A stretch of DNA of 46,697 nt, taken from positions 1 to 46,697 of the forward strand of contig CANGTC010000013.1 in assembly GCA_947456505.1 (NCBI GenBank). Direction: 5' to 3'. Under the pieces are notes generated by a model, which worked only from the letters and a program-made list of their open reading frames with translations, did not search any database and was not told where the DNA came from. Source of the stretch: Beijerinckiaceae bacterium. Lineage in GTDB: Bacteria > Pseudomonadota > Alphaproteobacteria > Rhizobiales > Beijerinckiaceae. Positions 15,875-38,552 of this stretch are shown here, piece by piece. Both the position numbers and the translations under genes were made by a program. How positions within the stretch are numbered: position 1 is the stretch's first letter; each line of letters opens with the position of its first letter.

Positions 15875-16106
15875 GGCGATCTCCGAAGCAAAATCCGATG
15901 GGAGCGCAAGGTCGTCCCGACGCGCGTGAGTGTCAACCGCCTTGCGCCAAAAAGGAAACGTCAAATTTTGCTCATTTTCAATGAAATTTGGTGCTTTTGG
16001 GCATTGGCTGGGCAAAACGTGCCGATTTTGGGGCAGCGGTTTGACAGGGCCCGGCGATCAGTAGAGTCTAGCGGCGATCAGCCTTTTGCGCCCCCGGGGA
16101 CCGCCT
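15875..16106. promoter_or_regulatory. Divergent promoter region, hydroxylase cassette 1 / receptor
   Basis: This 232-bp AT-richer gap separates divergent genes. TTGACA at 16041-16046 is followed after 15 bp by TAGAGT at 16062-16067, a possible sigma70 promoter for the plus strand with a short spacer. TTTTGGGCA at 15995-16003 is the reverse complement of TGCCCAAAA found in the other divergent region (22370-22378), a possible shared operator. This is inferred by eye. Confidence 0.4.
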
Positions 16107-22594: not shown

Positions 22595-23461
22595 ATGAAG
22601 TCTCCCGCCTTCGGATACCATGATCCAGGAACCGTCTCCGAAGCGGTTGGTCTGCTTGCGACTCTGCCCAATGCGCGCGTGCTGGCGGGCGGTCAGTCCT
22701 TGATGCCCATGCTCAACATGCGCGTGGTGCTGCCTGACCATCTCATCGACCTCAATCATGTCGCGGAAATGTCGGGTGTCGCGATCCGCGATGGCCTGCT
22801 GGTCATCGGCGCCATGACTCGCCAGCGCGACATCGAATTCAGCGACAGCGTCATGGCTCATTGCCCCATTCTGCCCGAGGCGCTGCTGCAGGTCGGCCAT
22901 CGGCAGACCCGCAACCGGGGCACGGTCGGCGGCTCCCTGTGCCATCTGGACCCCTCGGCGGAACTGCCCTGCCTTGCGGCGGTGATGGACGCTGTGATCG
23001 AGTCCGCCTCGCCGCGCGGGCGCCGCCAGATCGCCTTCGCCGACTTCGCCTCAAGCTACATGACGACCTCGCTGGAGCCAGACGAAATCGCCACTTCAGC
23101 GCAGTTTCCCCTATGGCCGCAGGGTCACGGTTACGCATTTCTCGAATTCGCCCGTCGCCATGGGGATTTCGCCTTGGCCTCGGCGGCCGTGCTGATGACT
23201 ACGGACGCGCAGGGGCGTATCACTCGGGTCGCGGTGGCCCTGTCCGGCGTCGGTCCTGTCCCCGTGCGCATGCAGGAGGCCGAGCAGGCCTTGCTGGGGC
23301 AGGTGGGCGGCGCCGAGGCGTTCGCGCAGGCCGCGAAAACCTGCGCCTCCCTTGAGCCGCAAGACGACATCCACGCGCCCGCCGCCTATCGCAAGCGCCT
23401 TGCGGGGGTGATGATGCGGCGCGCTCTTGAAAAGGCCTTTGGCCGGGCGGCGCGCCAATGA
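22595..23461 (+). CDS. Molybdenum hydroxylase FAD subunit (CoxM-like), cassette 2
   Basis: The 288-residue flavin subunit has AGGQSLMPML and NRGTVGGSLCHLDP, the two canonical FAD-binding loops, both intact. CO dehydrogenase FAD-subunit architecture continues to the C-terminal AAYRKRLAGVMMRRALEKA. It is the first gene of a continuous 13-gene plus-strand run ending at 38552. The start ATG at 22595 follows a weak GAGGG. It overlaps the 2Fe-2S gene by 4 bp. Confidence 0.93.
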   Translation: MKSPAFGYHDPGTVSEAVGLLATLPNARVLAGGQSLMPMLNMRVVLPDHLIDLNHVAEMSGVAIRDGLLVIGAMTRQRDIEFSDSVMAHCPILPEALLQVGHRQTRNRGTVGGSLCHLDPSAELPCLAAVMDAVIESASPRGRRQIAFADFASSYMTTSLEPDEIATSAQFPLWPQGHGYAFLEFARRHGDFALASAAVLMTTDAQGRITRVAVALSGVGPVPVRMQEAEQALLGQVGGAEAFAQAAKTCASLEPQDDIHAPAAYRKRLAGVMMRRALEKAFGRAARQ

Positions 23462-23961
23462 CATCCGCCTTCACACGCACGGTCGAACTCGAGGTGAATG
23501 GCGCCTCTTTCGCGCGGACCATCAATGTGCGGCGCAATCTGGCGGATTTCCTGCGCCATGACCTTGGCCTCACGGGCACCCATGTGGGGTGCGAGCACGG
23601 GGTCTGCGGCGCCTGCACGGTGCTGGTGGATGGGCAATCCGTCCGCGCCTGCCTGATGCTGGCCGTGCAGGCCCATGGCAAGGCGGTGACCACCATCGAG
23701 GGGTTGGCGCCTTCGCCTGGTGTGCTGCACCCCCTGCAGGCGGCGCTGCACAAGCACCATGGCCTGCAGTGCGGGTTCTGCACCCCGGGCATGTTGACGA
23801 CCTTGGTGGAGCTGCTCAACACGACGCCCAATCCCACCGCCCATGACGTGCGCATCGCCATCTCCGGGAATCTGTGCCGCTGCACGGGCTACGAGGGTAT
23901 TGTGGCGGCCGCCTTGGAGGCCGCCGAGGTCATCGCCGCTTCGAAGGAGGCGTCCAAATGA
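23458..23961 (+). CDS. Molybdenum hydroxylase 2Fe-2S subunit (CoxS-like), cassette 2
   Basis: The 167-residue small subunit has all eight cluster cysteines: [10 protein letters not shown] with RACLM in the N-terminal ferredoxin domain, and CGFCTPGM plus NLCRCTGY in the C-terminal helical domain. It overlaps by 4 bp with the genes on both sides (ATGA junctions), so the three subunits are translated in step. Confidence 0.94.
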   Translation: MTSAFTRTVELEVNGASFARTINVRRNLADFLRHDLGLTGTHVGCEHGVCGACTVLVDGQSVRACLMLAVQAHGKAVTTIEGLAPSPGVLHPLQAALHKHHGLQCGFCTPGMLTTLVELLNTTPNPTAHDVRIAISGNLCRCTGYEGIVAAALEAAEVIAASKEASK

Positions 23962-26291
23962 CGACCGTCGTCGGCGCCGATGTGCCCCGCCTCGAAGATG
24001 GGCCTCTGCTCATTGGCGCGGGTCGTTATGTGGACGATTTGTCCTTTCCCGGGACCCTGCATGTGGCCTTCGTGCGCAGCCAGCACGCCCATGCGTTGAT
24101 CACGGGCGTCGATACGGCCGCCGCCAAGGCCCTTCCGGGCGTCGTGGCCGTCTGGACCATGGCCGACATCGCCCCCCACCTCGCCGACCGGCTGCTGCGG
24201 GTGGCCCTGCCAAGCCCCGCCTATCGACAGGAATTGCATCGCCCTATTCTGGCGGAGACCGAGACCGTCCATGTGGGTGAGCCCATTGTCGCCGTCATCG
24301 CCAACGATCCCCATGTGGCCGAAGATGCGGCGGATCTGGTGGTGGTGCATTACGACGAACTCGTCGCCGTGACAGATTGCCGGGCCGCGCTGGAGCCCGG
24401 CTCCCCCACGGCCCATCTCAATGCTCCGGGCAATCTGGTGGCGGAATTTGAGCTCGGATATGGCGACCACGCCGGCGTCTTCGCTTCCGCGCCTCATGTC
24501 ATTCGCGAGAGCTACTGGCAGCACCGGGGCGTCGCCCATTCCATGGAATGCCGGGGCGTGCTGGCGCGCTTCGACACGGTCGATGAACGCCTGACCATGT
24601 GGAGCTCCACCCAGACCCCCCATGCGGGCAAGCGGGTGCTGTGCGATCTCTTGGGGCTGGACGAAGACCGCATCCGCGTCGTCACCCCCGATGTGGGCGG
24701 CGGTTTCGGGCCGAAGCTGGTGTTCTATCCCGAGGAGGCCATCGTCGCCCTGGCGGCGCTGCGCCTCAAGGCGCCGGTCAAATGGATCGAGGATCGCCGC
24801 GAGCACTTTGTCTCCACCACCCAGGAGCGTGACCAGTTCTGGGACATGGAGATCGCCACCGACAATGACGGGCGCATTCTGGGTCTGCGCGGGCTGCTGA
24901 TTCACGAACACGGCGCCTATACGGCGCGCGGCGTGAATGTGCCCTATGGATCGGGCGCGGCGATCACCCTGCCCTATGTCGTGCCGAGCTATCACCTGGA
25001 CATCAAGCTCGCCCTCACCAACAAGGTCTCCGTGACGCCCATTCGCGGCGCGGGCCAGCCCCAGGCGGTTTTCGTCATGGAGCGCCTGCTGGATCGCGTC
25101 GCTGAAAAGCTCGGGCTTGATCGGGTGGAGGTGCGCCGTCGCAATCTCGTGCAGCCCGAACAGATGCCCTATCGCACGCAACTGCAGACGCGCGGCGGCA
25201 TGCAGGTGGTGCTCGACAGCGGCGATTATCCCGCCTGCCTCGAGGCGGCGCTTGAGAAGGCGGACTGGCGGGGCTTCGCCCAGCGGAAAGCAAAAGCGCT
25301 GGCGCAGGGCCGGCATCTCGGCATTGGCCTCGCTAATTATGTGGAAGGCACGGGGCGCGGGCCTTTTGAACCCGTGAGCGTGCGCATCGCCGAAAATGGC
25401 CGCATCCATGTGGCCAGCGGCGCAGCCGCCATGGGCCAGAGCACCAAGACCATGCTGGCCCAGGTCGTCGCCGAGCAGTTGGGCTGCGACATGAGCAATA
25501 TCTCCGTGATCACCGGCGACACGGCGGCTATCGAGCTTGGCATGGGCGGCTTCAACAGCCGTCAGGCCGTGATGGCGGGCTCCTCGGCCCATGCGGCCGC
25601 GCTGAAGGTGCGCGAGAAGGCGCTGCATGTGGCGAGCCATATGCTGGATGTCGGCGTGCAGGCGCTGGAGATCGAGGGCCGCGCCATTCGCATGAAGGGC
25701 GAGGGCGGCAAGAGCATCGCGCTCGCCGAAGTGGCGCGCGCGCTGGCGGGTCTGCCGGGCTATTATATCCCCGGCAATGTGGCGCCCGGTCTCGAAGCTG
25801 AAGAGCGCGTCATCATCAACGACATGACCTACGCAAACGGCACGGCTGTGGTGGAGCTGGAAGTCGACGCGGAAACCGGTGGCGTCACCCTCTCCAACAT
25901 CGTTCTGGCTCATGATTGCGGGCGCATGCTGCATCCGCTGATCGTGGAAGGGCAGATTCTCGGCGGCATAGCCCATGGAATCGGCAACGCGCTGTATGAA
26001 TGGATGCGCTACGACGATGCGGGCCAACCGCTGACCACGACCCTCGCCGACTACCTGCTGGTGAGCGCCACGGAAATGCCGCCGAAAATCCATCTGGTGC
26101 ATCTGGAGTCGCCGACCCATCTGAATGAACTGGGCATCAAGGGCGTGGGCGAATCCGGCGTCATTCCCATGGCGGCGGCCATCATGTCCGCCATCGACGA
26201 CGCCCTGAAGAGCTTCGGCGTCCACATCACCAAGGCGCCCATCACCCCGCCAGAAATCCTTGACCTCATTGATCAGGCGATCGAGTCATGA
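23958..26291 (+). CDS. Molybdenum hydroxylase large subunit (CoxL-like), cassette 2
   Basis: The 777-residue molybdopterin subunit has LEDGPLLIGAGRYVDDL, VGGGFGPKLVFYPEE, the cofactor-loop segment IRGAGQPQAVFVMERLLD and the catalytic-Glu motif GIKGVGESG. The IRGAGQPQA loop differs from TYR(A/G)PGRYE in cassettes 1 and 3, so this enzyme probably takes another substrate or attacks another ring position. It is not a CO dehydrogenase (no CSFR loop). The start ATG at 23958 follows AAGGAGG; the frame is open upstream but that is inside the 2Fe-2S gene. Its last 4 bp overlap the PyrC-type gene, a strong hint of functional linkage. Confidence 0.93.
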   Translation: MTTVVGADVPRLEDGPLLIGAGRYVDDLSFPGTLHVAFVRSQHAHALITGVDTAAAKALPGVVAVWTMADIAPHLADRLLRVALPSPAYRQELHRPILAETETVHVGEPIVAVIANDPHVAEDAADLVVVHYDELVAVTDCRAALEPGSPTAHLNAPGNLVAEFELGYGDHAGVFASAPHVIRESYWQHRGVAHSMECRGVLARFDTVDERLTMWSSTQTPHAGKRVLCDLLGLDEDRIRVVTPDVGGGFGPKLVFYPEEAIVALAALRLKAPVKWIEDRREHFVSTTQERDQFWDMEIATDNDGRILGLRGLLIHEHGAYTARGVNVPYGSGAAITLPYVVPSYHLDIKLALTNKVSVTPIRGAGQPQAVFVMERLLDRVAEKLGLDRVEVRRRNLVQPEQMPYRTQLQTRGGMQVVLDSGDYPACLEAALEKADWRGFAQRKAKALAQGRHLGIGLANYVEGTGRGPFEPVSVRIAENGRIHVASGAAAMGQSTKTMLAQVVAEQLGCDMSNISVITGDTAAIELGMGGFNSRQAVMAGSSAHAAALKVREKALHVASHMLDVGVQALEIEGRAIRMKGEGGKSIALAEVARALAGLPGYYIPGNVAPGLEAEERVIINDMTYANGTAVVELEVDAETGGVTLSNIVLAHDCGRMLHPLIVEGQILGGIAHGIGNALYEWMRYDDAGQPLTTTLADYLLVSATEMPPKIHLVHLESPTHLNELGIKGVGESGVIPMAAAIMSAIDDALKSFGVHITKAPITPPEILDLIDQAIES

Positions 26292-27346
26292 CCCAAAGGC
26301 TGACCATCCGCAAACCCGACGACTGGCACCTGCATGTGCGCGACAACGAGATGATGCGCGCTGCGCTGCCCTATACCGCGCGCAATTTCGGCCGCGCGAT
26401 CCTCATGCCCAACCTCCTGCCGCCCGTGCGCACCACGGCGGAGGGCGCTGCCTATCGCCAGCGGGCGCTGGTGGCCTTGCCTGCGGGCTCCACCTTCACG
26501 CCTCTGATCACGTGCTACCTCACCGATGACACCGATCCCGATGATGTCGAGCGCGGCTTCAAGGAGGGCGTCTTCACGGCGGTGAAGCTCTATCCCGCCA
26601 ACGCCACCACCAATTCGGCGGCGGGCGTCACCGATTACAAGCTCATCGAGCGTGTGCTGGCGCGCATGGAAAAGATCGACATGCGCTTGTTGATCCATGG
26701 CGAGGAGGTTGATCCAACCGTCGATGTGTTCGACCGCGAGGCTGTCTTCATCGAGCGCAAGCTCATTCCCATGACGAAGCAGTTTCCGGGCCTGAAGATC
26801 GTGCTCGAACATCTCTCCTCGAAAATCGGCGTCGAGTATATCCGCTCCGCCGGTGGACAGGTCGGCTCTTCGATCACCCCCTATCATCTGCAACTCAATC
26901 GCACGGATTGGCTGGGCTGGGGCAATCGCCCCTATATGTATTGCATGCCCGTCATCAAGACCGAGGCGGATCGGCTTGCCCTGCGCGACGCTGCGACCTC
27001 TGGCGAATCCTGCTTCTTTCTAGGCACGGATTCGGCGCCCCATTCGGTCGCCAAAAAGCTCGCGACCACTGGCGCCGCAGGCCTCTTTAATGCGCCCGTC
27101 GCCATCGAAACCTATGCGCAGGTCTTTGAAGAGGACGGCAAGCTGCATAACCTCGAAGCCTTCGCCTCTTTGAATGGCCCGAAGCATTATGGCTTGCCGC
27201 CGAACGAAGAGACGATCACGCTGGAGAAGGTCTCCTGGATCGCCCCTGAGCAGGTGGATGTGGAAGGGCCCGAGGAACGCGCGCTTGTCTATCGCGGGGG
27301 CGAGTCCATCCCCTGGCGCGTGGTTCACGAGGGGCAGGGGGGCTGA
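26288..27346 (+). CDS. pyrC: Dihydroorotase-type (class II, PyrC-like) cyclic amidohydrolase
   Basis: The 352-residue protein matches E. coli-type dihydroorotase in length and along its whole sequence. Both metal sites are present: H14 and H16 (WHLHVRD), Lys100 for carboxylation (VKLYPANATT), H137, H175 and D248 (GTDSAPH). Residues that hold the dihydroorotate carboxylate in the known enzyme are also present (R18, N42, H252), as is the TTNS flexible loop. It could therefore be a true pyrimidine-synthesis enzyme. However, it is locked by a 4-bp overlap to a molybdenum hydroxylase and by TGAATG to an amidase, and no other pyr gene is near. I infer a catabolic role: opening a carboxylated cyclic imide or amide. 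The symbol reflects homology only. Confidence 0.9.
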   Translation: MTQRLTIRKPDDWHLHVRDNEMMRAALPYTARNFGRAILMPNLLPPVRTTAEGAAYRQRALVALPAGSTFTPLITCYLTDDTDPDDVERGFKEGVFTAVKLYPANATTNSAAGVTDYKLIERVLARMEKIDMRLLIHGEEVDPTVDVFDREAVFIERKLIPMTKQFPGLKIVLEHLSSKIGVEYIRSAGGQVGSSITPYHLQLNRTDWLGWGNRPYMYCMPVIKTEADRLALRDAATSGESCFFLGTDSAPHSVAKKLATTGAAGLFNAPVAIETYAQVFEEDGKLHNLEAFASLNGPKHYGLPPNEETITLEKVSWIAPEQVDVEGPEERALVYRGGESIPWRVVHEGQGG

Positions 27347-28666
27347 ATGGCTGCCACGCGCGCACCCAACGAATTATCCGCCATCGAGGCCGCGCAACGC
27401 ATCGCGTCGGGCGAGCTGACCTGCGAGGCGCTGGTGCGCGCCTGTCTCGACAGGGCCGAGGCGCGCGAGAGCGAGGTGGGGGCTTTCTCTTTCCTTGATC
27501 CCAAGCTCGCCATCGAGACGGCGCGGCGCATGGATCAGGCGACTGGTCCGCGCGGCCCGCTCCATGGCCTGCCCGTCGGCGTGAAGGATGTGCTCGACAC
27601 TGATGATATGCCGACCGGCATGGGCTCGCCCATCTATGCCGGTCATCGCACGCGCACGGATGCGGCGATTGTCGCGAAAACCCGCGCGGCTGGGGGTCTC
27701 GTGCTCGGCAAGACGGTGACTTGCGAATTTGCAGGCGCGGCGCCCGGCGGCACGCGCAACCCCCATGATCTCTCGCGCACGCCCGGCGGCTCCTCGAGCG
27801 GGTCTGCGGCGGCGGTCGCGGACTTCATGGCGCCGCTCGCCTTCGGCACGCAAACCGGCGGCTCCATGCTGCGTCCCGCGTCCTTCTGCGGCATCGTCGG
27901 CTACAAGCCGACCTATGGAACCTTCAGTCGGCAGGGGCTCAAATTCGCCGCTGAAAATCTAGACACCATCGGCCTTTTCGGGCGGACGGTGGAAGATGTG
28001 TTCTACTTCGCCGACGCGCTGCTGCATCGCCCCTATGCGCCGCCAGCGCCCCTGACGCGGCCACGCCTTGGGCTCTGCCGCACCTTCCTGTGGGAGGCGA
28101 AGGCGCAGCCTGAGATGCGCGCCGCGCTTGAGGCGGCGGCGCGGCAGGCCGAAAAGGCGGACGCCATCGTCACCGAGTTCGATCTGCCCGCAGGCTTCGC
28201 TGACCTTTCGCCCGCGCGCGACATCATCAATGACTTCGAACGCACCCGGTCCATGACCTGGGAATGGGCGCATCATCGCGAAGCCATTTCGCCCCAGCTC
28301 ACGGGGGCCATCGAGTCCGGCCTCAAGATCTCCTTCGAGACCTATGCAGCCGCCCTGCGCCGCGCCGAAACCCTCCGCCGTGAGCTGGATGTGCTGCTTG
28401 GCGATGTGGATGGGCTCATTGCGCCTTGTGTGAATGGCGAGGCGCCGGTAGGCCTGCACTATACCGGCGATCCCGCCCTGCAGGGGCTCTGGACCATCCT
28501 GCATGTTCCAACCCTGGCGCTTCCAGCCGCGCGCGGTCCATCCGATATGCCCCTCGCCATTCAGATCGTGGCGCCCCGCGATTCTGACCGCACCCTTTTC
28601 GCCCTCGCCGCCTGGCTGCGTGACGCAGCTGGCGTTCACCTTCCACAGCCCCACAAGGGATCCTGA
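27347..28666 (+). CDS. Amidase-signature family hydrolase
   Basis: The 439-residue enzyme has the Ser-cisSer-Lys triad region of the amidase signature family: Lys80 (LPVGVKDVLDT), the Gly/Ser-rich loop RTPGGSSSGSAAAVA (cis-Ser about 149) and the nucleophile Ser173 in TQTGGSMLRPA. The usual Asp before TGGS is Gln here, a mild deviation. Such enzymes release ammonia from amides. The start directly abuts the PyrC-type stop (TGAATG), so the two are coupled. In context it would deaminate the open-chain amide made by ring opening (inference). No signal peptide is seen. Confidence 0.9.
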   Translation: MAATRAPNELSAIEAAQRIASGELTCEALVRACLDRAEARESEVGAFSFLDPKLAIETARRMDQATGPRGPLHGLPVGVKDVLDTDDMPTGMGSPIYAGHRTRTDAAIVAKTRAAGGLVLGKTVTCEFAGAAPGGTRNPHDLSRTPGGSSSGSAAAVADFMAPLAFGTQTGGSMLRPASFCGIVGYKPTYGTFSRQGLKFAAENLDTIGLFGRTVEDVFYFADALLHRPYAPPAPLTRPRLGLCRTFLWEAKAQPEMRAALEAAARQAEKADAIVTEFDLPAGFADLSPARDIINDFERTRSMTWEWAHHREAISPQLTGAIESGLKISFETYAAALRRAETLRRELDVLLGDVDGLIAPCVNGEAPVGLHYTGDPALQGLWTILHVPTLALPAARGPSDMPLAIQIVAPRDSDRTLFALAAWLRDAAGVHLPQPHKGS

Positions 28667-28711
28667 AACACCGGCCCATCAGAGGCCAAAACTTGAACTG
28701 GAGTGAGATGC

Positions 28712-30205
28712 ATGTCCGAGAAATGGGATGTTATTGTCATTGGCGGCGGCAACGCCGCTTTCTGCGCAGCGCTCGCCGCGCAAGAGCGCGATCTGAAAAT
28801 TCTGATGCTGGAGCGCGCGCCTGAGGAAGAATCCGGCGGCAATTCGCGTTTCACCGCCGGCGCCTTCCGCATCGTTTACAACGGCGTCGATGACCTGCGC
28901 GCCCTCATGCCGGATGTGACCGATGAAGAGGCCGCAATCTCTGATTTCGGCACCTACACGAGCGATCAGTTCTTCGACGACATGTTCCGCGTCACGCGCT
29001 TTCGCACCCATGGCGATCTGTGCGAGCGCCTCGTCACCAAGTCCTATGAAGGCGTGATGTGGCTGCGCAGCAAGGGCATGCGCTTCCAGCCGATCTGGGG
29101 TCGTCAGGCCTACAAGATCAACGGTCGCTTCAAGTTCTGGGGCGGCCTGACCGTCGAGTCCTGGGGCGGTGGCCCCGGTCTCGTCGAGCAGCACACCACG
29201 ATCGCCAAGAAGCGCGGCATCGAGATTCGTTACGGCGCTCGCGCCCTCTCGCTGATCTATGACGGCCATGCGGTGCAGGGCGTGAAGGTCAAGCAGAACA
29301 ACGAAATCTATGACGTCTACGGCACCTCCGTCGTCATCGCGAGCGGCGGCTTTGAGTCCAATCCCGAGTGGCGCACCCGTTATCTCGGCCCCGGTTGGGA
29401 GCTCGCCAAGGTTCGCGGCACCCGCTTCAACACCGGTGACGGCCTCAAGATGGCCATCGACATCGGCGCCTCCACCTGCGGCAACTGGTCTGGCGGCCAT
29501 GCGGTTGGCTGGGACTATAATGCGCCGGAATATGGCGACCTCAGCGTGGGCGACAATTTCCAGAAGCATTCCTATCCCTGGGGCATCATGGTCAACGCCA
29601 CCGGCAAGCGTTTTGTCGATGAGGGCGCCGACTTCCGCAACTATACCTATGCACGCTATGGCCGCGTGATCCTCAACCAGCCCGACCAGTTCGCGTGGCA
29701 GGTCTTCGACAAGAAGATCATCCCCATGCTGCGCGACGAATATCGCATCAAGCGTGTCACCAAGGTCTCGGCCAATACGCTCGAGGAACTGGCGCACAAG
29801 CTGGAAGGCGTCGATCCCGAGGGCTTCCTGAAGGAGATCGCGGAATATAACGCCGCCGTGAAGACCGATGTGCCCTTCGATCCCAACGTCAAGGATGGTC
29901 GCTGCACTGAAGGCCTGCCGGTCAACAAGTCCAACTGGGCCAACACGATCTCTGAAGCGCCCTTCGAGGCCTATCAGGTCACCTGCGGCCTCACCTTCAC
30001 CTTCGGTGGTCTGCGCACGGTGGCCGATACGATGGAAGTGCTGGACGTCGATCACAATGTCATCCCCGGCCTCTATGCGGCGGGCGAGCTTGTGGGCGGC
30101 ATCTTCTACTTCAACTATCCCGGCGGTTCGGGCCTCACCTCGGGCACCGTGTTCGGCCGCACGGCGGGCGACGCGGCGGGCGATTACGCGCGCTCGAAAC
30201 GCTGA
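28712..30205 (+). CDS. TcuA-like FAD-dependent dehydrogenase (fumarate reductase flavoprotein family)
   Basis: The 497-residue flavoprotein begins with a dinucleotide fold (VIVIGGGNAAFCAAL, then LMLERAPEEESGGNSRF). It keeps the family blocks GKRFVDEGADFRNYTYARYGR, VTCGLTFTFGGLRT and IPGLYAAGELVGGIFYFNYPGGSGL. These are closer to the tricarballylate dehydrogenase (TcuA) branch than to fumarate reductase; the HHTMGG substrate-binding histidines of the latter are replaced by LTFTFGG. TcuA oxidises tricarballylate to cis-aconitate and needs the electron carrier TcuB, which is not in the window. ATG 28712 is chosen because GGAG lies 8 nt upstream; GTG 28703 is an alternative. The exact substrate is inferred. 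Confidence 0.85.
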   Translation: MSEKWDVIVIGGGNAAFCAALAAQERDLKILMLERAPEEESGGNSRFTAGAFRIVYNGVDDLRALMPDVTDEEAAISDFGTYTSDQFFDDMFRVTRFRTHGDLCERLVTKSYEGVMWLRSKGMRFQPIWGRQAYKINGRFKFWGGLTVESWGGGPGLVEQHTTIAKKRGIEIRYGARALSLIYDGHAVQGVKVKQNNEIYDVYGTSVVIASGGFESNPEWRTRYLGPGWELAKVRGTRFNTGDGLKMAIDIGASTCGNWSGGHAVGWDYNAPEYGDLSVGDNFQKHSYPWGIMVNATGKRFVDEGADFRNYTYARYGRVILNQPDQFAWQVFDKKIIPMLRDEYRIKRVTKVSANTLEELAHKLEGVDPEGFLKEIAEYNAAVKTDVPFDPNVKDGRCTEGLPVNKSNWANTISEAPFEAYQVTCGLTFTFGGLRTVADTMEVLDVDHNVIPGLYAAGELVGGIFYFNYPGGSGLTSGTVFGRTAGDAAGDYARSKR

Positions 30206-30225
30206 ACGCATCGGGAGAGTTGTGT

Positions 30226-31884: not shown

Positions 31885-31913
31885 ATGTGATTGAAATCTC
31901 CGGGGAGACGAGA

Positions 31914-32930
31914 ATGCAAGCGGTTGTGGTGAGCGCATTCGGACCCTACCAGGACGCGCAGATCGCCGACATCCCCTGTCCGCAGATCGCGCCCCACGAA
32001 GTGCTGATCGAGGTGCGCGCTGCGCCGGTAAACTTCGTCGATCTCATCGTCATTGCAGGCAAGTATCAGTTTCTCCCCAAACTGCCCTTCACGCCTGGCA
32101 AGGGCCCTTCGGGCGTCGTGCGCAAGGTGGGCGCGGAGGTCTCTGACCTGAAGCCCGGGGACCGCGTGCTCGCCATGGCCGAGGTGGGCGGCTATGCACA
32201 ATTCGTCAATGTCGCTGCGAACCAATGCTACCGTTTGCCGGAGGCGCTCACATTCAGCCAGGCGGCGGCGATTTCGCTGACCTATGACACCTCATGGTTC
32301 GCGCTGCACGACCGTGCGCGGTTGGCTGCGGGCGAGACGGTGCTGGTTCTCGGCGCGTCAGGCGGCGTCGGCGGCGCAGCGATTCAATTGGCGAAGGCCA
32401 AGGGCGCGCGCGTGCTGGCGGCGGTGTCTTCGCCAGACAAGTTCGAGCGTTTGAAGCAGATGGGCGCCGACGCCATGGTGGATCTGTCGGCGCCAGATAT
32501 GAAGGAGTCGCTGCGCGAGCAGGTCTTCGCCTTGACCGATGGCAAAGGCGCCGATGTGATCATCGATCCCATTGGCGGCGATTTTTTTGATGCGGCGATC
32601 AGGGCGCTCGCCTGGCGTGGCCGGCTTGTGGTGATTGGCTTTGCTGCGGGTCGCATTCCCCAGATCAAGGTCAACTATCTCCTCGTCAAGAATATCGAAG
32701 TCTCCGGCCTGCAGGTCAGCGATTACCGCAAGCGCCGCCCCGAGCAGGTGGCCGAATGTTATCGCGATGTCTTCTCGCTTTTCGAGGCTGGGCGGCTGAC
32801 CATTCCTGAGCCGACGGAACTGCCGCTGGGCGACTTTCGCGAGGGCCTGCGCCTTGTGGACGAGCGAGCGGCTACGGGACGCATTTTGTTGATTCCGCCT
32901 CTGGCGACAGCCGAAGCGATCCCAGCATGA
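31914..32930 (+). CDS. MDR-family NAD(P)H:quinone oxidoreductase-like protein
   Basis: The 338-residue zinc-free medium-chain dehydrogenase/reductase has an N-terminal GroES-like part (APVNFVDLIVIAGKYQ, PFTPGKGPSGVV) and a Rossmann fold with LVLGASGGVGGAAIQLAK. The catalytic zinc ligands of alcohol dehydrogenases are absent. This subgroup reduces quinones, enones or enoyl-CoA double bonds. Start ATG 31914 follows GGGGAG; GTG 31887 is an alternative. A likely role is reduction of a double bond in a pathway intermediate, but this is inference. It overlaps the regulator gene by 4 bp. Confidence 0.9.
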   Translation: MQAVVVSAFGPYQDAQIADIPCPQIAPHEVLIEVRAAPVNFVDLIVIAGKYQFLPKLPFTPGKGPSGVVRKVGAEVSDLKPGDRVLAMAEVGGYAQFVNVAANQCYRLPEALTFSQAAAISLTYDTSWFALHDRARLAAGETVLVLGASGGVGGAAIQLAKAKGARVLAAVSSPDKFERLKQMGADAMVDLSAPDMKESLREQVFALTDGKGADVIIDPIGGDFFDAAIRALAWRGRLVVIGFAAGRIPQIKVNYLLVKNIEVSGLQVSDYRKRRPEQVAECYRDVFSLFEAGRLTIPEPTELPLGDFREGLRLVDERAATGRILLIPPLATAEAIPA

Positions 32931-33841
32931 GCTTTCGCTATGATGAAATCGGCAACAGGCTGAAGGCCTTTCGCATCGCCTCCGGATTGAGCGCGGATGA
33001 GATAGCCCGGCGCATCGGCATCTCGCGCACGGCGCTGTATCGGTTCGAGCGCGGGGAATTGGCGAAGATCGAAACGCTTGATAAACTCGCCGAGCTTCTA
33101 GGCGTTTCCATCCCCACCTTACTGGGTGTCGGGATCGAGTTCATCTCCTCAGCGGTCGCCTATTTCGAACGCTTGCGACAGATCGAGGAAGAGGCGCAGC
33201 ATATCATCGTGCTGGCCGGACCGATTTCCTTCTTGCTGGCCTCCCCCAATTTCGAGTCCATGCTTGAGCAATTGCTCATCGAGAGCATCTCGCCTGAACT
33301 CGCCAATGGAACCCGTCTGCTGGCGGATGTGCGGACCATTCTGGGTATTTTGAAACAACGCAAGGAGACTTTCTTGCGGCGCAGGCCTGCGGTGGTGAAT
33401 CTCATTTCAGGCCTCGAAATCGAACGGCTCTTGCGCAATGGCTTTGTGGGCAAGGCTCTGCTGCCGCCTGCAGAACATCAGAAGCGCGTGGCGCTGGCGC
33501 GCGCTGAGATCAAGCACTTTGCTGACCTTGTGGCGCAACAGCCCATCGGCGTGCAGATCGGCGTTGTGCGCGACGCGCTGCCGCAAACGGGCTTTCAGAT
33601 TTTTCGCCTGACGGATCGGCGCATCATGACCCTGAGTCCCTTCCGGCTTGGCGAAAACCCCAATGTGCGTGTGGGCGTGGCGATGATCACATCCGCCGAA
33701 GAGGCGCTCGCCCTGCATGAAAAGGCCGCCAACGAGATGTGGGAAAGCGCGCTCAAGGGGCAGGACGCGAGCAATTATCTGCGCAGCCTGATCGCCGCGA
33801 CGGAGGGCTCCGGCCCCAGTCGTCGCGCGGCGACGCAATAG
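32927..33841 (+). CDS. XRE-family transcriptional regulator
   Basis: The 304-residue regulator has an N-terminal XRE helix-turn-helix (about residues 5-60: IGNRLKAFRIASGLSADEIARRIGISRTALYRFERGE). A long C-terminal part of about 230 residues, possibly a ligand-sensing domain, has no motif that I recognise. Lying inside the operon and overlapping the MDR gene by 4 bp, it is a good candidate for the pathway-specific regulator, perhaps acting on the control region at 22270-22594. The effector is unknown. Confidence 0.88.
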   Translation: MSFRYDEIGNRLKAFRIASGLSADEIARRIGISRTALYRFERGELAKIETLDKLAELLGVSIPTLLGVGIEFISSAVAYFERLRQIEEEAQHIIVLAGPISFLLASPNFESMLEQLLIESISPELANGTRLLADVRTILGILKQRKETFLRRRPAVVNLISGLEIERLLRNGFVGKALLPPAEHQKRVALARAEIKHFADLVAQQPIGVQIGVVRDALPQTGFQIFRLTDRRIMTLSPFRLGENPNVRVGVAMITSAEEALALHEKAANEMWESALKGQDASNYLRSLIAATEGSGPSRRAATQ

Positions 33842-33868
33842 AGACAAAGAACAGGACGGGAGTTCGAT

Positions 33869-34855
33869 ATGGCGAAGCTCAAACTGACCCTCGCATGCGG
33901 CGACTACGAAATCATCAGGCCGCTGAAGGAGGGCACGGTCCAGCCTGATGGCATCGAGCTCAATGTGCTCACGGATATGGATTCCACCACACGCCACTGG
34001 CGATTTCTGCGCAATCAGGATTTCGACGTGGGCGAGGTCAGTTGCTCCTCCTATATCGCCTCCAAGGACAAGGGATTTCCCTTCGAGGCGATTCCGGTGT
34101 TTCTGCATCGTCGCTTCCGCCATGGCTTTGTCTTTGTCAACACGACCAAGGGCATCAAAACGCCGAAGGATCTCATTGGCCGCAAGGTGGGCCTCAAGCA
34201 ATATCAGTCCACCGCGATCCTGTGGCTGCGCGGCTTGCTCGACCATGAATATGGCGTGCCCTTCAAATCCATCGATTGGTACACGGAGTTGGCCGAAGCC
34301 ATCGATTTCACGCCCCCTCCCGGCTTGCGCCTGCAACGCATCCCCGATGACAAATCCATCGAGACAATGCTGGCTGAAGGCGAAGTGGATGCGCTCATTC
34401 ATCCTGATCTGATTCAGCCCCTGGTGGACAAGGATCCGCGCGTCGGGCGTCTGTTTCCAAATTACAAGCAGGAGGAGATGGCCTTCTTCCAGCGCACCGG
34501 CACTTTCCCCATCATGCATGTGATGGGGCTCAAGCAGGAGATCGTGGAAAAATATCGCTGGGCGGCGATGAACCTCTATCAGGCCTTCGAGAAGTCCAAG
34601 GACATCGCCATGAAGCGCATGGCCAATCCGCGCATTGCGCCGCTGGCCTGGTATCGCGAAGCCTGGGAAGAGCAGGAAGAGGTGCTGGGGCCCGACCCCT
34701 GGGAATATGGACTCACCGAGCACAACGCCAAACAGCTCGACCAGCTCGCCACCTTCGCCCACGAGCAGGGGCTCACCAACCGCAAGCTCACGTTGGACGA
34801 ACTCTTCCTTCCGGTGGCGCAGGGCCACAAGCGCGGCAAGGTGTTCCGAATCTGA
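33869..34855 (+). CDS. 4,5-dihydroxyphthalate decarboxylase-like protein (SBP fold)
   Basis: The 328-residue protein begins MAKLKLTLACGDYEIIRPLKEGTVQPDGIELN and continues FDVGEVSCSSYIASKDKG, the start typical of the 4,5-dihydroxyphthalate decarboxylase family, which has a periplasmic-binding-protein fold. It has no signal peptide, unlike every solute-binding protein nearby, so it should be cytoplasmic. That favours an enzyme removing CO2 from a ring diacid over a transport receptor. It is 27 bp after the XRE gene and 55 bp before the third hydroxylase. Many family members are uncharacterised, so the reaction is uncertain. Confidence 0.75.
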   Translation: MAKLKLTLACGDYEIIRPLKEGTVQPDGIELNVLTDMDSTTRHWRFLRNQDFDVGEVSCSSYIASKDKGFPFEAIPVFLHRRFRHGFVFVNTTKGIKTPKDLIGRKVGLKQYQSTAILWLRGLLDHEYGVPFKSIDWYTELAEAIDFTPPPGLRLQRIPDDKSIETMLAEGEVDALIHPDLIQPLVDKDPRVGRLFPNYKQEEMAFFQRTGTFPIMHVMGLKQEIVEKYRWAAMNLYQAFEKSKDIAMKRMANPRIAPLAWYREAWEEQEEVLGPDPWEYGLTEHNAKQLDQLATFAHEQGLTNRKLTLDELFLPVAQGHKRGKVFRI

Positions 34856-34872
34856 CCGCCATAGACTGCTCA

Positions 34873-34903
34873 TTCGCGAATAAAGCGCACCTCGAAATTC
34901 GAG
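34873..34903 (+). promoter_or_regulatory. Two palindromes ahead of hydroxylase cassette 3
   Basis: TTCGCGAA (34873-34880) and CTCGAA-A-TTCGAG (34891-34903) lie in the widest gap of the operon, 8-38 bp before the cassette 3 start at 34911. They could be an operator or an RNA hairpin that sets internal expression. No clear -35/-10 pair is visible. Confidence 0.35.
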
Positions 34904-34910
34904 ATCAAAA

Positions 34911-35762
34911 ATGAAGCTGCCGGACTTCGATTATCACAGCCCCACAAGCCTTGAGGAAGCGATCACCCTCATGGCGACGCCTAATGCGAGGGTGCTCGCA
35001 GGCGGGCAAAGCCTGCTTCCCATCATGGCCTTTCGCCTCGCCGCGCCCTCGGCCCTTGTCGATTTGCGCAAGATAAAGGGTCTCAACCAGATCGAGATCA
35101 CCCAGGACGCCATTCATCTTGGCCCCATGGTGCGCTGGCGTGATGTGGAGCGCCATGAAGGGCTCGCCACCGCCTTGCCGATGCTGACGCAAGCAATGGA
35201 GCATGTGGCCCATTATCAGATCCGCAATCGCGGTACGGTGGGCGGCAGCCTCGCCCATGCGGACCCCGCAGCCGAATTTCCCGGCATCGCCGTGACTTGC
35301 GATGCGCGCATTCATCTGGCGAGCGCGAGCGGACAGCGGGTCCTGGCTGCGACTGATTTGTTTGTAGGCCCGCTGGAGACCTGCTTGCAGGAGGGAGAAA
35401 TCATCACCTCCATCGAATTTGCAGTTTGGCCGAAAGCGCGCCGCTGGGCCTTTGAAGAGTTTTCTCAGCGGCGCGGCGATTTCGCGCTGGCGGGGATCGC
35501 GGTCTTTTATGACCTTGATGGCGGAAACCACGCGCAAAACACTCACATCGGTGTCATCGGCGCCACGGATCGCCCGCGCCGTCTGCCGGATGCAGAGGCG
35601 GCGCTGAATGGTCATGTCGTCAGCGAAAAGGTCATCGCGCAGGCCTGCGCCGCAGCTTCCGCAGAGGTCGATCCGCCCAATGATATCCATGGATCCGCCG
35701 CTTATCGGCGGTCTCTTGTCGGTACGCTATTGCAGCGCGCCCTTGTCAAAGCGTCCCGCTGA
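34911..35762 (+). CDS. Molybdenum hydroxylase FAD subunit (CoxM-like), cassette 3
   Basis: The 283-residue flavin subunit has AGGQSLLPIM and NRGTVGGSLAHADP, both FAD loops canonical, and the family C-terminus SAAYRRSLVGTLLQRAL. It is clearly related to the cassette 1 and 2 subunits. The start ATG 34911 has only a weak GAGATC upstream, and the palindrome CTCGAAATTCGAG ends 7 nt before it. It is followed 10 bp later by the 2Fe-2S gene. Confidence 0.93.
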   Translation: MKLPDFDYHSPTSLEEAITLMATPNARVLAGGQSLLPIMAFRLAAPSALVDLRKIKGLNQIEITQDAIHLGPMVRWRDVERHEGLATALPMLTQAMEHVAHYQIRNRGTVGGSLAHADPAAEFPGIAVTCDARIHLASASGQRVLAATDLFVGPLETCLQEGEIITSIEFAVWPKARRWAFEEFSQRRGDFALAGIAVFYDLDGGNHAQNTHIGVIGATDRPRRLPDAEAALNGHVVSEKVIAQACAAASAEVDPPNDIHGSAAYRRSLVGTLLQRALVKASR

Positions 35763-35772
35763 GGTGAATGCG

Positions 35773-36258
35773 ATGTCAGTGAAATTCGTAATCAATGGCC
35801 GCAAGGTTGAAGTGGATCCTCCAGCGCGCATGACGCTTGCTGATTGCCTGCGCCAACAGGTGAAGCTCACGGGCACCCATGTGGGATGCGAGCACGGGGT
35901 CTGCGGCGCCTGTACCGTGATCGTGGATGGCGAGGCCATGCGCTCCTGCCTCATGCTGGCGGCGCAGGCTGATGGCGCTGAGATCATGACGATCGAGGGC
36001 CTTTCGTCAGATGCGGAACTGACGCCCCTGCAGATGGCGTTCAAGAAGAACCATGGGTTGCAATGTGGCTTTTGCACACCGGGCGTTCTCATGACACTGC
36101 ATGCCCTGCTCACCCAGGAGCCCTATGCGAGCGAGGAGCGCATTCGCGATGTGCTCTCGGGCAATCTTTGCCGGTGCACTGGTTACATCCCGATCATCGA
36201 GTCCGCCCTGGAGGCGCGCGCCGCCTATCAGGATCAAGCCCGGAGCGCCCAGGCATGA
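35773..36258 (+). CDS. Molybdenum hydroxylase 2Fe-2S subunit (CoxS-like), cassette 3
   Basis: The 161-residue small subunit has [10 protein letters not shown] with RSCLM, then CGFCTPGV and NLCRCTGY, so both 2Fe-2S clusters are intact. The ATG at 35773 follows GAGG 8 nt upstream; the frame extends further upstream but that overlaps the FAD subunit gene. The end overlaps the large subunit start by 4 bp. Confidence 0.94.
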   Translation: MSVKFVINGRKVEVDPPARMTLADCLRQQVKLTGTHVGCEHGVCGACTVIVDGEAMRSCLMLAAQADGAEIMTIEGLSSDAELTPLQMAFKKNHGLQCGFCTPGVLMTLHALLTQEPYASEERIRDVLSGNLCRCTGYIPIIESALEARAAYQDQARSAQA

Positions 36259-38552
36259 AAACCGTCAACACCTATATCGGAAGCCCCGTCGAGCGCGTCG
36301 AGGACTATCGGTTCCTGCGCGGCGAAGGGCAATATGTGGGCGACCTCGTGCGCGAGGGCCAATGGCATGCGGCCTTTGTGCGCAGCCCTGTTGGTCATGG
36401 GGTGATTAGGAACATCGATTATTCTGCGGCCCTTGCATGGCCCGGCGTCAAGGCCGTTCTCACGGCGGCCGACATCGAAGGCGAAATTCCCAAGATCCCC
36501 TTCCGTCGCCCCAACCCCACCATCGGACCTTTCGCGCAACCGATCATCGCGAGCGGCAAGGTGCGTTATTTCGGCGAGCCAGTCGCCGTCATACTTGCGG
36601 AGTCGGCTGAGATCGCCGAGGACGCGCTGGCGGCGATTGTGCTCGACATCGAGCAATTGCCCGCCGCCGTTGATCGCCAGACCTGCATGAGCGATGCGGT
36701 GGTGCTCTTCGATCATCCTGGCAGCAATATCGCAACCGTCTTTCATGCCAACAAGGGTGAAGCGGATGCGGCTTTTGCGGCGGCGGACGTGACCGTTCGC
36801 GGCCAGTTCTCCACCCAGCGTCAGACCGCGCTGCCCATGGAGACGCGCGGCCTGCTGGCGGAATGGGATTCGCAGAGCAACCATCTCACTGTCTATGGCG
36901 CAGCCAAGCTGCCCTTCTTCAACCGCAAGACCATGGCGGATCTGATGCATCTGCCGGAGTCGGCCGTCGATTATATCGAGGTCGACGTGGGCGGGGGCTT
37001 TGGCGCACGCGGCGAATTTTATCCCGAAGACTTTCTAGTGGCCTTCGCTGCGCGCAAGTTCAACAAGCCCGTGCGCTGGATCGAGGATCGGCGCGAACAT
37101 CTCACCGCCATCGGCCATTCGCGCGAAGCCGAATGCGATGTCGAGCTCGCGTTCAGCAAGGATGGGACCTTGCTGGGCATGCGCGGTGACCTCTACGTCA
37201 ACGTCGGCGCCTATGTGCGCCCCAACGGCATGACGCCCGTGCGCAACGCCGCGCAATTCATGTCTGGCCCCTATCGCATTCCCTCCATTCACCTGCAGGC
37301 TCACGCCTATGTCAGCAATAAAACCCCGGCTGGCACCTATCGCGGTCCTGGGCGCTATGAAGGCTCCTTCTTCATCGAGCGATTGATGGACCTCGCCGCC
37401 GCGCGCCTCGGCATGGATCGCCTTGCCCTGCGTCGGCGCAACCTGGTGACTGACGCGGAAATGCCCTATCCGCTGGCGCCGGTGTTGCCGAGCGACGGAC
37501 GCGCCGAAACCAACTGCGACAGCGGCGACTATCGTGTCTGTTTCGACAAATGCCTCGAGGAATTCGGCTGGGCGCAAAAGGCCGAGCTTGATGGCAAGCT
37601 GATCGACGGGCGTTATCACGGGCTCGGCATCGCCTGCTTCATCGAAGGCGGCGCCTCGGGCCCATCGGAAACCGCGCGCATGGAAATCGAGCCGGATGGT
37701 TCAGTTGCTGTCTATGCGGGCTCATCCGCCATCGGCCAGGGCCTTGAGACCGTGCTCTCGCAGATCGCTGCTGATGCGCTTGAAATCTCCATTGATCGCA
37801 TCAAGCTCTATCATGGCTCCACCACCTATCTGAAGGAAGGTTGGGGTTCCTATGGCTCTCGTGCGACGGTCATGGGCGGTAGCGCTGTGATTGATGCGGC
37901 GACGAAGTTGCTTGAGGCTTTTAAAGTTGCAGCCGCGTCGCGGCTCAAGATCGACCCTTCCGAACTCACGGTGGTCGATGGCGTCGCGCGGGCCAAGGAT
38001 GGGCGCAGCGTGCCCTTTGAGGAAGTGGCGAGCATGGGCGTCCGGGCCGATGGCCGCTTCGACAACTGGAAGCCCACCTATTCCTACGGCACAAGCGCCG
38101 TTCACTTGACGGTGGATCCCGGCACCGGCCATGTGGAGGTCCTCGACTATACGATTGTCGATGACGTCGGGCGCATCATCAATCCTCTGACACTGCATGG
38201 GCAGGTCATGGGCGCGGTGGTGCAGGGGCTTGGCAGCGCGTTTAGCGAAGAACTCATCTATGACTCCGATGGCACGCTGCTCGTGGGATCGCTCGCGGAT
38301 TACATGATCCCGCTCGCGACCGATTACCCCCATGTCCACTGCGTCTCGATGGAGTCTTTCCCCTCGCCCATCAATCCGCTTGGCGCCAAGGGTGCTGGCG
38401 AGGGAGGGATCATTCCGGTCGGCGGCGCCGTCGCCAATGCGGTGGCTTCCGCTCTGCGTGATTTTGGCGTTCAACCCTCTCGTATGCCGCTCAATCCGCA
38501 AAGGGTCTGGGAACTGATTCAGGATGGAAAGAAGGCGCTCGCTTCGGTCTGA
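36255..38552 (+). CDS. Molybdenum hydroxylase large subunit (CoxL-like), cassette 3
   Basis: The 765-residue catalytic subunit has VGGGFGARGEFYPED, TYRGPGRYEGSFFIERLMD and the catalytic-Glu motif GAKGAGEGG (the usual Ser after Glu is Gly). TYRGPGRYE places it with cassette 1 rather than 2. No CO dehydrogenase loop is seen. The ATG at 36255 is chosen because it forms the ATGA overlap and gives the standard N-terminus (SPVERVEDYRFLRGEGQYVGDL). It is the last gene of the 13-gene run; the next gene is convergent. The substrate is unknown. Confidence 0.92.
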   Translation: MKTVNTYIGSPVERVEDYRFLRGEGQYVGDLVREGQWHAAFVRSPVGHGVIRNIDYSAALAWPGVKAVLTAADIEGEIPKIPFRRPNPTIGPFAQPIIASGKVRYFGEPVAVILAESAEIAEDALAAIVLDIEQLPAAVDRQTCMSDAVVLFDHPGSNIATVFHANKGEADAAFAAADVTVRGQFSTQRQTALPMETRGLLAEWDSQSNHLTVYGAAKLPFFNRKTMADLMHLPESAVDYIEVDVGGGFGARGEFYPEDFLVAFAARKFNKPVRWIEDRREHLTAIGHSREAECDVELAFSKDGTLLGMRGDLYVNVGAYVRPNGMTPVRNAAQFMSGPYRIPSIHLQAHAYVSNKTPAGTYRGPGRYEGSFFIERLMDLAAARLGMDRLALRRRNLVTDAEMPYPLAPVLPSDGRAETNCDSGDYRVCFDKCLEEFGWAQKAELDGKLIDGRYHGLGIACFIEGGASGPSETARMEIEPDGSVAVYAGSSAIGQGLETVLSQIAADALEISIDRIKLYHGSTTYLKEGWGSYGSRATVMGGSAVIDAATKLLEAFKVAAASRLKIDPSELTVVDGVARAKDGRSVPFEEVASMGVRADGRFDNWKPTYSYGTSAVHLTVDPGTGHVEVLDYTIVDDVGRIINPLTLHGQVMGAVVQGLGSAFSEELIYDSDGTLLVGSLADYMIPLATDYPHVHCVSMESFPSPINPLGAKGAGEGGIIPVGGAVANAVASALRDFGVQPSRMPLNPQRVWELIQDGKKALASV

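Follow-up and report, generated by a model that had tools for sequence, protein, structure and literature searches.

A conserved gene cluster in an uncultured alphaproteobacterium that looks like a route for pyridine carboxylic acids, with a dihydroorotase-type enzyme as putative ring opener

Genes and features of the locus

The window, by which we mean the whole stretch of 46,697 nucleotides analysed here (Beijerinckiaceae bacterium, contig CANGTC010000013.1), carries thirteen open reading frames on the plus strand at 22595-38552, no two neighbours being more than 55 bp apart (the widest gap runs from 34855 to 34911). Their order is a three-subunit Mo-hydroxylase (Mo1; FAD, FeS, Mo), a PyrC-dimer type amidohydrolase, an amidase, a TcuA-like protein, an AMP-forming ligase, an MDR reductase, an XRE regulator, a Pht5-like protein and a second Mo-hydroxylase (Mo2; FAD, FeS, Mo). 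Three junctions are 4-bp overlaps, and two more measure 0 and 2 bp. The listed starts at 23874, 35608 and 36063 are the earliest possible start codons and overlap the preceding gene; since the profile matches of these genes begin 30-70 residues further in, the true junctions are probably tighter than listed. The operon described in the earlier note is thus real, and the family names given there agree with profile searches of the operon proteins. The extent proposed then holds for 22595-38552, but not as a left edge of the system: a third three-subunit Mo-hydroxylase, Mo3 (16086..19766, plus strand; FAD 16086-16964, FeS 16961-17443, Mo 17436-19766), and an NMT1/SsuA-type solute-binding protein with a start that by eye resembles a signal peptide (19799..20758, plus strand) adjoin the divergent UbiD gene, and both do so in the sister genome G036 as well, the solute-binding protein as a 94% counterpart.

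All three Mo-hydroxylases were assigned by profiles. Mo1 (22595..26291; FAD 22595-23461, FeS 23458-23961, Mo 23874-26291) and Mo2 (34911..38552; FAD 34911-35762, FeS 35608-36258, Mo 36063-38552), both on the plus strand, are closest among solved structures to hydroxylases of pyridine and quinoline rings: the nearest solved relatives of Mo1 are 6-hydroxypseudooxynicotine dehydrogenase and quinoline 2-oxidoreductase, and the best PDB match of Mo2 is 7dqx (7.5e-147). Traits of the xanthine oxidase family are present (FAD, [2Fe-2S] and Mo subunits, G-x-G-E motif), with GVGES and an RGAGQP loop in Mo1. The top profile match of Mo1, aerobic CO dehydrogenase (NF040766; 740 bits, under the cut-off of 950), was rejected, because the loop reads RGAGQP in place of the Cys loop that we take to be the active loop of that enzyme.

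The PyrC-type gene (26288..27346, plus strand) scores 392.6 bits against TIGR00856 (cut-off 292.95). The metal ligands, Lys102, Arg20, Asn44, Thr109/110 and His254 (E. coli numbers), which we take to be the catalytic and carboxylate-binding residues, are present in 14 of 14 members of its clade, and the same metal, carbamylated lysine and carboxylate residues occur in 84 of 84 members of a canonical PyrC set. As Arg20, Asn44 and His254 presumably hold the substrate carboxylate, the residue set would fit a carboxylated six-membered ring. The position of E. coli Leu222, presumably a backbone ring contact, is Met throughout the clade (14/14). The protein thus has its family, metal site, Lys102 and carboxylate-binding residues in common with E. 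coli PyrC (1xge); it differs in operon context and in being an extra copy beside other dihydroorotase-family genes, since pyrC_multi exceeds its cut-off in 13 of 14 PyrC-clade genomes and four genomes (G025, G008, G028, G002) also hold a second dimer-type PyrC at 52-54%. A residue signature was discarded as proof of a new substrate: of 23 residues by which the clade is distinguished, 16 are shared by a 71% relative (L073) located in a pyrK-pyrD-phosphoribosyltransferase cluster, so that these changes need not mean a new substrate and the PyrC sequence alone proves nothing. Other clade changes, such as W213, N215, T227 and A265 (E. coli numbers), are absent from this relative.

Downstream lie an amidase-signature amidase (27347..28666; PF01425, 245 bits) with K80 and the GGSSSGSAAAVA and TGGS motifs, a TcuA-like FAD dehydrogenase (28703..30205), an AMP-forming acyl-CoA ligase (30220..31884; PF00501, AMP-binding, 220 bits) with the motif FTSGTTGQPK and no match among solved structures at 1e-60, and an MDR reductase (31887..32930; PF00107), all on the plus strand. 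The last reaches 241 bits against TIGR02824, under the cut-off of 297, and its best PDB match is 4eye. The dehydrogenase scores 569 bits against NF006130 (cut-off 369) and 252 against TIGR02485 (cut-off 372.6), and since no TcuB partner (TIGR02484) was found in the window genome, which is 88% complete, we name it TcuA-like rather than TcuA.

An XRE-type regulator (32927..33841, plus strand; HTH_3 match) follows, which met only general regulator and DNA-binding families in PHROGs, and then a protein of the 4,5-dihydroxyphthalate decarboxylase (Pht5) family (33869..34855, plus strand). Over residues 1-316 the latter matches the solved decarboxylase 9jp7 at 1.6e-52; it barely passes the Pfam NMT1 cut-off (22.6 bits against 20.5), and no signal peptide was seen by eye. 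The UbiD-family (prFMN) decarboxylase (20815..22269, minus strand) exceeds the cut-offs of PF01977/20696/20695 and keeps the E-G-P-x-G-E region (EGPLGEWTGY); among solved structures it matches 7pda at 1.4e-106 and phthaloyl-CoA decarboxylases at 9e-13. The divergent promoter region holds an operator-like palindrome, TGTGCCAAATTTGGATCA (22318..22335, plus strand), the sole match within the window (0.09 expected). Of 10 other loci, 6-7 carry its core in the corresponding interval with 1-2 changes; a single shuffled set gave no more than 2 of 10. To the right, profiles assign two TctC-like receptors (39751-40905 and 41768-42895) and a class II aldolase-fold gene (41001-41813), all on the plus strand; for the latter, both G007 and G041 have a 69% counterpart next to their UbiD-XRE genes, and the three genes possibly belong to the same island. 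An Rfam scan of the window gave one match, a tRNA at 6555-6627.

Recurrence of the cluster in other genomes

The same gene order was sought in other genomes, and the gene content and largely the order were found again in genomes of the same genus, mostly at 54-99% protein identity (the exception being TcuA of G007 and G041, at 36%). From this recurrence we conclude that the gene set is more than chance. Members of the PyrC clade (at least 75% identity) are present in 15 of 101 related genomes, the window genome included, and in one genome of another family among 397. Co-occurrence was compared in 27 genomes, 16 with the operon and 11 controls. The ligase (one copy truncated at a contig end) and the amidase (at least 54%) accompany the clade PyrC in 16 of 16 operon genomes and UbiD does so in 15 of 16, against 0 of 11 controls in each case, although p-values overstate these differences because the genomes are related and the controls were chosen by the analyst. 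UbiD, which in the earlier note was a gene that may serve related diacids, must hence be counted as core; the genome in which no ortholog was found is G030.

The MDR gene is kept in rearranged clusters of relatives, and the XRE gene in those of G007, G041, G030 and G269. In G007 and G041 a 4HBT thioesterase separates the ligase from the MDR gene. In G030 it comes directly after the ligase and is itself followed directly by a 46% relative of the solute-binding protein; the other 24 of the 27 genomes gave no thioesterase match at 1e-20. Homologues of Mo3 are found inside the cluster of G007, G041 and G030. In G269, PyrC, amidase, MDR and XRE lie together with two distant Mo-hydroxylases (Mo subunit 30-36%), which suggests that the upper part varies while the lower part is kept; ligase and TcuAB of this genome lie on other contigs.

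Two TcuA types form separate clades, the window type and the TcuB-partnered type. In G007 and G041 the cluster interior holds a TcuA over both curated cut-offs and a TcuB over TIGR02484 (under NF011607), thereby matching the TcuA/TcuB system of tricarballylate utilisation, and in G030 curated-level TcuA/TcuB adjoin the ligase, divergent from ligase and thioesterase. The window, by contrast, has the distant type without TcuB. This type lies in the operon of G000 (the window genome), G036 and G045, all three lacking a TcuB over cut-off, and none of the 16 operon genomes combines it with a TcuB over cut-off; in G002, TcuB is absent and the operon contains no TcuA. Among 14 loci showing both amidase and ligase, the slot between them holds TcuA in three, a CoxG-type gene in six and nothing named in five. 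Enrichment of TcuB was dismissed as evidence by itself, since 11 of 16 operon genomes against 5 of 11 controls is not significant (p 0.26).

Among named genomes the operon was found solely at locus L072, within the best 80 of at least 591 confirmed loci. No plasmid record spans it, a single record accounting for 3% of the query. A Paracoccus plasmid region has three TcuA-like genes and no other window proteins. Six further plasmid regions (H32, H33, H17, H18, H35, H19) hold two Sinorhizobium Pht5-like genes (69%), three UbiD relatives (39-45%) and another Pht5-like gene (43%), with no PyrC match.

A possible citrazinate route and its rivals

Our proposal, to which we would give an even chance, is that the cluster serves to break down a pyridine-4-carboxylate (isonicotinate and/or pyridine-2,4- or -3,4-dicarboxylate) through CoA-dependent reduction, opening by PyrC and conversion of tricarballylate to cis-aconitate. 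In the upper part the Mo-hydroxylases would oxygenate the carbons flanking the ring nitrogen; where a second carboxyl is present, UbiD and the Pht5-like protein would take it off, and the outcome would be citrazinate (2,6-dihydroxyisonicotinate). In the lower part, for which there is comparative support, the ligase would form citrazyl-CoA, the MDR enzyme would reduce its activated C=C as an enoyl-type reductase, and the thioesterase of some relatives would free 2,6-dioxopiperidine-4-carboxylate. Hydrolysis of this imide by PyrC would then give the monoamide of tricarballylate, which corresponds to carbamoyl-aspartate as its carba analogue. From this monoamide the amidase would release ammonia, and a tricarballylate dehydrogenase would deliver cis-aconitate to the TCA cycle. 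Citrazinate is 1-deaza-orotate, and its reduced product differs from dihydroorotate in having CH2 in place of N1, which would make a dihydroorotase-type enzyme a natural ring opener. Isonicotinate would be a candidate starting substrate, and UbiD and the Pht5-like protein are unneeded for isonicotinate itself; the two decarboxylase-type genes suggest that entry may be by a pyridine dicarboxylate (2,4- or 3,4-), with isonicotinate or 2-hydroxyisonicotinate as intermediate.

The earlier note had left ring reduction optional. A route without it, in which PyrC would open the cis-aconitimide tautomer of citrazinate and the amidase would yield cis-aconitate, with ligase, MDR and TcuA serving other compounds, is the shortest, and it accords with the lack of TcuA in the slot of 11 of 14 loci and with the dispersed ligase and TcuAB of G269. 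We nonetheless regard it as unlikely, given the ligase distribution (16/16 against 0/11), the MDR gene kept through rearrangement and the two TcuA types in or beside the cluster. Dihydroorotase-type enzymes, moreover, are known to act on a saturated ring. CoA-dependent reduction, with tricarballylate as the free product, appears likelier on account of the ligase, the MDR enzyme and, in three genomes, the thioesterase. Otherwise the earlier sequence of Mo-hydroxylation, imide opening, deamidation and cis-aconitate entry remains the best-supported reading. It is strengthened by the co-occurrence of PyrC, amidase and ligase and by the curated-level TcuA, with TcuB, that two relatives have within the cluster and a third has next to its ligase.

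Rather improbable is a nicotinate-like course, with UbiD acting on 2,6-dihydroxynicotinate, PyrC opening 2,6-dihydroxypyridine (glutaconimide), the amidase giving glutaconate, and ligase and MDR leading to glutaryl-CoA. It would use UbiD, a core gene, and then ligase and MDR in order; yet its ring lacks the carboxylate that Arg20, Asn44 and His254, kept in 14 of 14, presumably hold, and TcuA/TcuB and the thioesterase are left unexplained. We judge very unlikely a catabolism of orotate or another pyrimidine carboxylate, with PyrC as true dihydroorotase and the amidase as ureido-hydrolase: the dihydroorotase cut-off is exceeded, the residues are kept and the nearest outside relative lies in a pyrimidine-type cluster, but none of the 13 operon proteins gave a DHODH-type match, 13 of 14 genomes have further genes of the dihydroorotase family, and ligase, MDR, UbiD, TcuA and three Mo-hydroxylases would have no role. 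Least probable by our estimate is an aromatic imide or phthalate-type scheme (PyrC and amidase opening a phthalimide-like ring, ligase forming an aroyl-CoA that UbiD decarboxylates), to which the Pht5-like gene and a 45% UbiD relative near phthaloyl-CoA-decarboxylase and CoA-transferase genes on Aromatoleum EbN1 plasmid 2 lend some colour, but UbiD is far from the solved phthaloyl-CoA decarboxylases, phthalimide has no free carboxylate, and pyridine-type Mo-hydroxylases and TcuAB go unexplained.

Known pathways and significance

The FDCA/furoate pathway (Hmf genes) employs UbiD, a CoA ligase and a Mo-hydroxylase on a heteroaromatic acid. The window has these three jointly, but the ring handled by the Hmf pathway is a furan, not a pyridine, and PyrC, amidase and TcuA are not known to take part in it. 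Isonicotinate catabolism in Mycobacterium sp. INA1 (Kretzer, Frunzke and Andreesen 1993), as mentioned in PMC4548258, involves two hydroxylations with a Mo enzyme to a 2,6-dihydroxy product, as proposed here. It differs in being an actinobacterium that was studied by biochemistry. INA1 is also said to handle citrazinate in a CoA-dependent manner and to form a C6 tricarboxylate, and later Mycolicibacterium work reportedly describes a cluster of isonicotinate genes that includes an amidohydrolase. The window has candidate genes for the INA1-type steps, namely two ring hydroxylations to citrazinate, formation of the CoA ester and opening to a C6 acid. Our literature search, with most subscription journals outside its coverage, returned no gene-level report of isonicotinate catabolism, and absence is not claimed. 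The enamidase of nicotinate catabolism in Eubacterium barkeri (PMC7356986) likewise belongs to the amidohydrolase superfamily and opens a reduced hydroxypyridine carboxylate, freeing ammonia; it differs from the proposed PyrC role in its nicotinate-type ring, its 2-formylglutarate product and the lack of a CoA step or tricarballylate.

This conserved cluster of an uncultured alphaproteobacterium and some relatives looks like a complete pyridine carboxylic acid route, and its ring opener would seem to be a second copy of an enzyme of nucleotide synthesis, reused on a pyridine-derived ring. Tentatively, and somewhat short of even confidence, we suggest that the pathway mirrors pyrimidine chemistry, with citrazinate handled as 1-deaza-orotate, by reduction of its CoA ester, a recruited dihydroorotase paralogue and a tricarballylate drain, in a fixed lower module that is combined with exchangeable Mo-hydroxylase/decarboxylase entry modules and for whose last oxidation two distantly related TcuA types were recruited separately. 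If true, this would mean that the citrazinate branch of pyridine-acid breakdown has a gene set that is complete and can be tested, with relevance to isonicotinate and, possibly, pyridine dicarboxylates; it would make automatic 'pyrC' naming doubtful for genes that have Mo-hydroxylases, an amidase and a CoA ligase as neighbours, and would clearly exemplify the transfer of a dihydroorotase to carbon catabolism.

Organization and conservation of the operon

The source genome of the window (4.39 Mb in 325 contigs, completeness 88% and contamination 6%, with the window as contig C13) carries a thirteen-gene operon on the plus strand (22595-38552), running from a first Mo-hydroxylase (Mo1) through PyrC-type, amidase, TcuA-like, CoA ligase, MDR reductase, XRE and Pht5-like genes to a second Mo-hydroxylase (Mo2). 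The gene count, order and tight junctions described in an earlier note are borne out by the ORF positions, and profile and solved-structure searches agree with the protein families named there; the divergent UbiD gene is located at 20815-22269. To the left of UbiD are genes for a solute-binding protein and a third Mo-hydroxylase, placed likewise in the sister genome (G036). Elsewhere in the window, two large TPR proteins are encoded at 10037-14853, of which the first carries an OGT-like domain of glycosyl transferase family 41, and the stretch at 39751-46396 holds two TctC-like receptors, a class II aldolase-fold gene, a PAS-HWE histidine kinase and an Amidohydro_2 gene; no TctA or TctB was seen among the window genes searched, which comprised part of its ORFs.

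PyrC proteins of the window type (75-100% identity) occur in 15 of 101 relatives' genomes, the window's own included, although the G016 copy is split across two contigs and that of G040 is only a fragment; the remaining matches in these genomes lie at 55% identity or less and are for the most part ordinary PyrC. Among 397 genomes of the order, a 1e-125 threshold is passed solely by the window's genome and by G269, a member of another family (76% identity). When the window proteins were mapped onto the 13 other same-genus loci with this PyrC clade, and onto seven loci with a PyrC type of about 53-55%, the amidase adjoined PyrC in all 13 of the former, while nothing beyond PyrC matched in the latter, save a 47% XRE relative in one locus (L047). 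Six contigs (G037, G039, G025, G045, G028 and G024) retain most of the operon in unchanged order, and on them UbiD and Mo1 are transcribed divergently; in G045 XRE is missing from its usual place. Most of the operon is likewise present in G007 and G041, in rearranged form.

This association holds across a sample of 27 genomes, 16 with clade PyrC (15 same-genus and G269) and 11 hand-picked same-genus controls without it. The ligase (E <= 1e-150) is found in 15/16 versus 0/11, or in 16/16 if G002, where it is cut by a contig end, is counted; the amidase (54% identity or more) in 16/16 versus 0/11, with relatives at 41-44% in two controls; and UbiD (76% or more) in 15/16 versus 0/11, being absent from G030 and sitting apart from the PyrC genes in G269. 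The corresponding Fisher p values (8e-8 for 16/16 and 9e-7 for 15/16) overstate the strength of the co-occurrence, because the genomes are related.

Proposed ring opening and link to tricarballylate

In an alignment of 14 near-full clade sequences (L044 being too short and L072 a duplicate) against 84 canonical ones, the catalytic and carboxylate-binding positions checked are kept throughout the clade, which differs from the canonical proteins at 23 listed positions (e.g. S179, S180, Y218, M222, D230, L260 and H302, in E. coli numbering). A 71% relative in L073 has 16 of these 23 changes, including the seven just named, and lacks V143, G195, W213, N215, I225, T227 and A265. Its gene lies in a single row (L073:2568-8689) with PyrK-type, PyrD, two phosphoribosyltransferase, CoxG and 34% Pht5-like genes, a possible tie between pyrimidine and aromatic-acid genes. 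Since L073 carries them in this pyrimidine-type neighbourhood, the 16 shared changes follow ancestry, and we rejected them as proof of a new substrate. The assignment of the PyrC substrate rests instead on chemistry and gene context. With CH2 in place of N1, dihydroorotate becomes 2,6-dioxopiperidine-4-carboxylate, the proposed substrate, whose opening and deamidation would lead to exactly tricarballylate; a carboxyl group on ring position 3 would yield none.

The position between amidase and ligase, scored in the 14 loci showing both genes, holds the window-type TcuA in 3/14 (the window, G036 and G045). In loci L033, L034, L035, L036, L039 and L042 a CoxG-family gene replaces it, recognized by Pfam in five (G037, G039, G025, G002 and G024) and in G008 by resemblance to the G025 protein; the slot is empty or without a named gene in G028, G007, G041, G016 and G040. 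CoxG is known from Mo-hydroxylase clusters, and here it may serve Mo1 and Mo2. A different TcuA, above both curated cut-offs (NF006130 and TIGR02485), lies with TcuB elsewhere within the clusters of G007 and G041, where TcuB passes TIGR02484 and falls below NF011607, and in G030 such a TcuA and TcuB are divergent from ligase and thioesterase, at a distance of about 16 kb from PyrC. Although homologous (about 36% identity), the two TcuA types form separate clades with full support. TcuB above cut-off is found in 11/16 operon genomes versus 5/11 controls (p 0.26), and in none of the three with window-type TcuA within the operon. This TcuA and TcuB never occur in the same operon genome (0/16; Fisher p 0.018). 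We read the overall pattern as one function served by two separately recruited enzymes.

In G007 and G041 a 4HBT thioesterase gene separates ligase from MDR, and in G030 one directly follows the ligase; this placement fits an acid being activated, reduced and then released. No match at 1e-20 was found in the other 24 of the 27 genomes, where a different thioesterase would have to serve.

Regulation

A palindrome upstream of the operon, TGTGCCAAATTTGGATCA (22318-22335), may be the XRE operator. Its core recurs with one or two changes within the corresponding interval of 6-7 of 10 other loci, against at most 2/10 in one shuffled set; the window contains one match where 0.09 are expected, and 8 of 100 shuffles also have one. 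A Rhodospirillaceae metagenome-assembled genome (L076:2526-6749) encodes an XRE protein 58% identical to that of the window alongside a 58% PyrC and, as named by eye, M20-type hydrolase-like and PyrE-like proteins. This neighbourhood hints that the XRE family of the window senses orotate-like acids.

Candidate entry substrates and proposed upper pathway

The later steps of the isonicotinate pathway of Mycobacterium sp. INA1 reportedly include a C6 tricarboxylate as well as a CoA ester, and isonicotinate genes have reportedly been described since from Mycolicibacterium. The earlier note took isonicotinate through citrazinate, imide opening and deamidation to cis-aconitate. That route is partly supported, and its lower half is strengthened by co-occurrence, the TcuA/TcuB pattern and thioesterase placement; isonicotinate is one candidate for the entry substrate. 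The INA1 pathway itself is briefly stated in PMC4548258. Decarboxylases would be superfluous for entry from isonicotinate, whereas they would have a role if pyridine 2,4- or 3,4-dicarboxylate entered. As a whole, we regard the proposed pyridine-acid route as roughly an even proposition, because its enzyme activities are predicted from genes and more than one acid is a candidate for its entry.

The closest solved structures to Mo1 and Mo2 are 6-hydroxypseudooxynicotine dehydrogenase and quinoline 2-oxidoreductase; UbiD is closest to 7pda, a UbiD-family decarboxylase, and then to PA0254/HudA, named a pyrrole-2-carboxylate decarboxylase in the title of PMC7976604, and the Pht5-like protein matches 9jp7. 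A second cluster in the window's genome (G000 contig C5, L164:5514-15352) contains UbiD (61%), a Pht5-like gene (63%) and two Mo-hydroxylases; close by are a Rieske-domain gene and TctC-like receptors, and the 20 kb analysed there yielded no PyrC match. The cluster probably encodes a related pathway that acts on a different aromatic acid. G030 presents a wide catabolic island (G030:C85:105001-160000), in which PyrC and amidase are surrounded by two Amidohydro_2-like genes and by TcuAB, ligase, thioesterase and Mo-hydroxylase genes; to the right of these lies a gene named by eye as a Rieske-type oxygenase. In G269, PyrC, amidase, MDR and XRE are combined with an ABC transporter of the branched-chain type and two Mo-hydroxylases of only distant similarity, and the ligase is on a separate contig alongside a UbiD (59%) and a CoxG gene. 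Entry modules thus differ between genomes, whereas the set of PyrC, amidase, ligase and MDR is retained.
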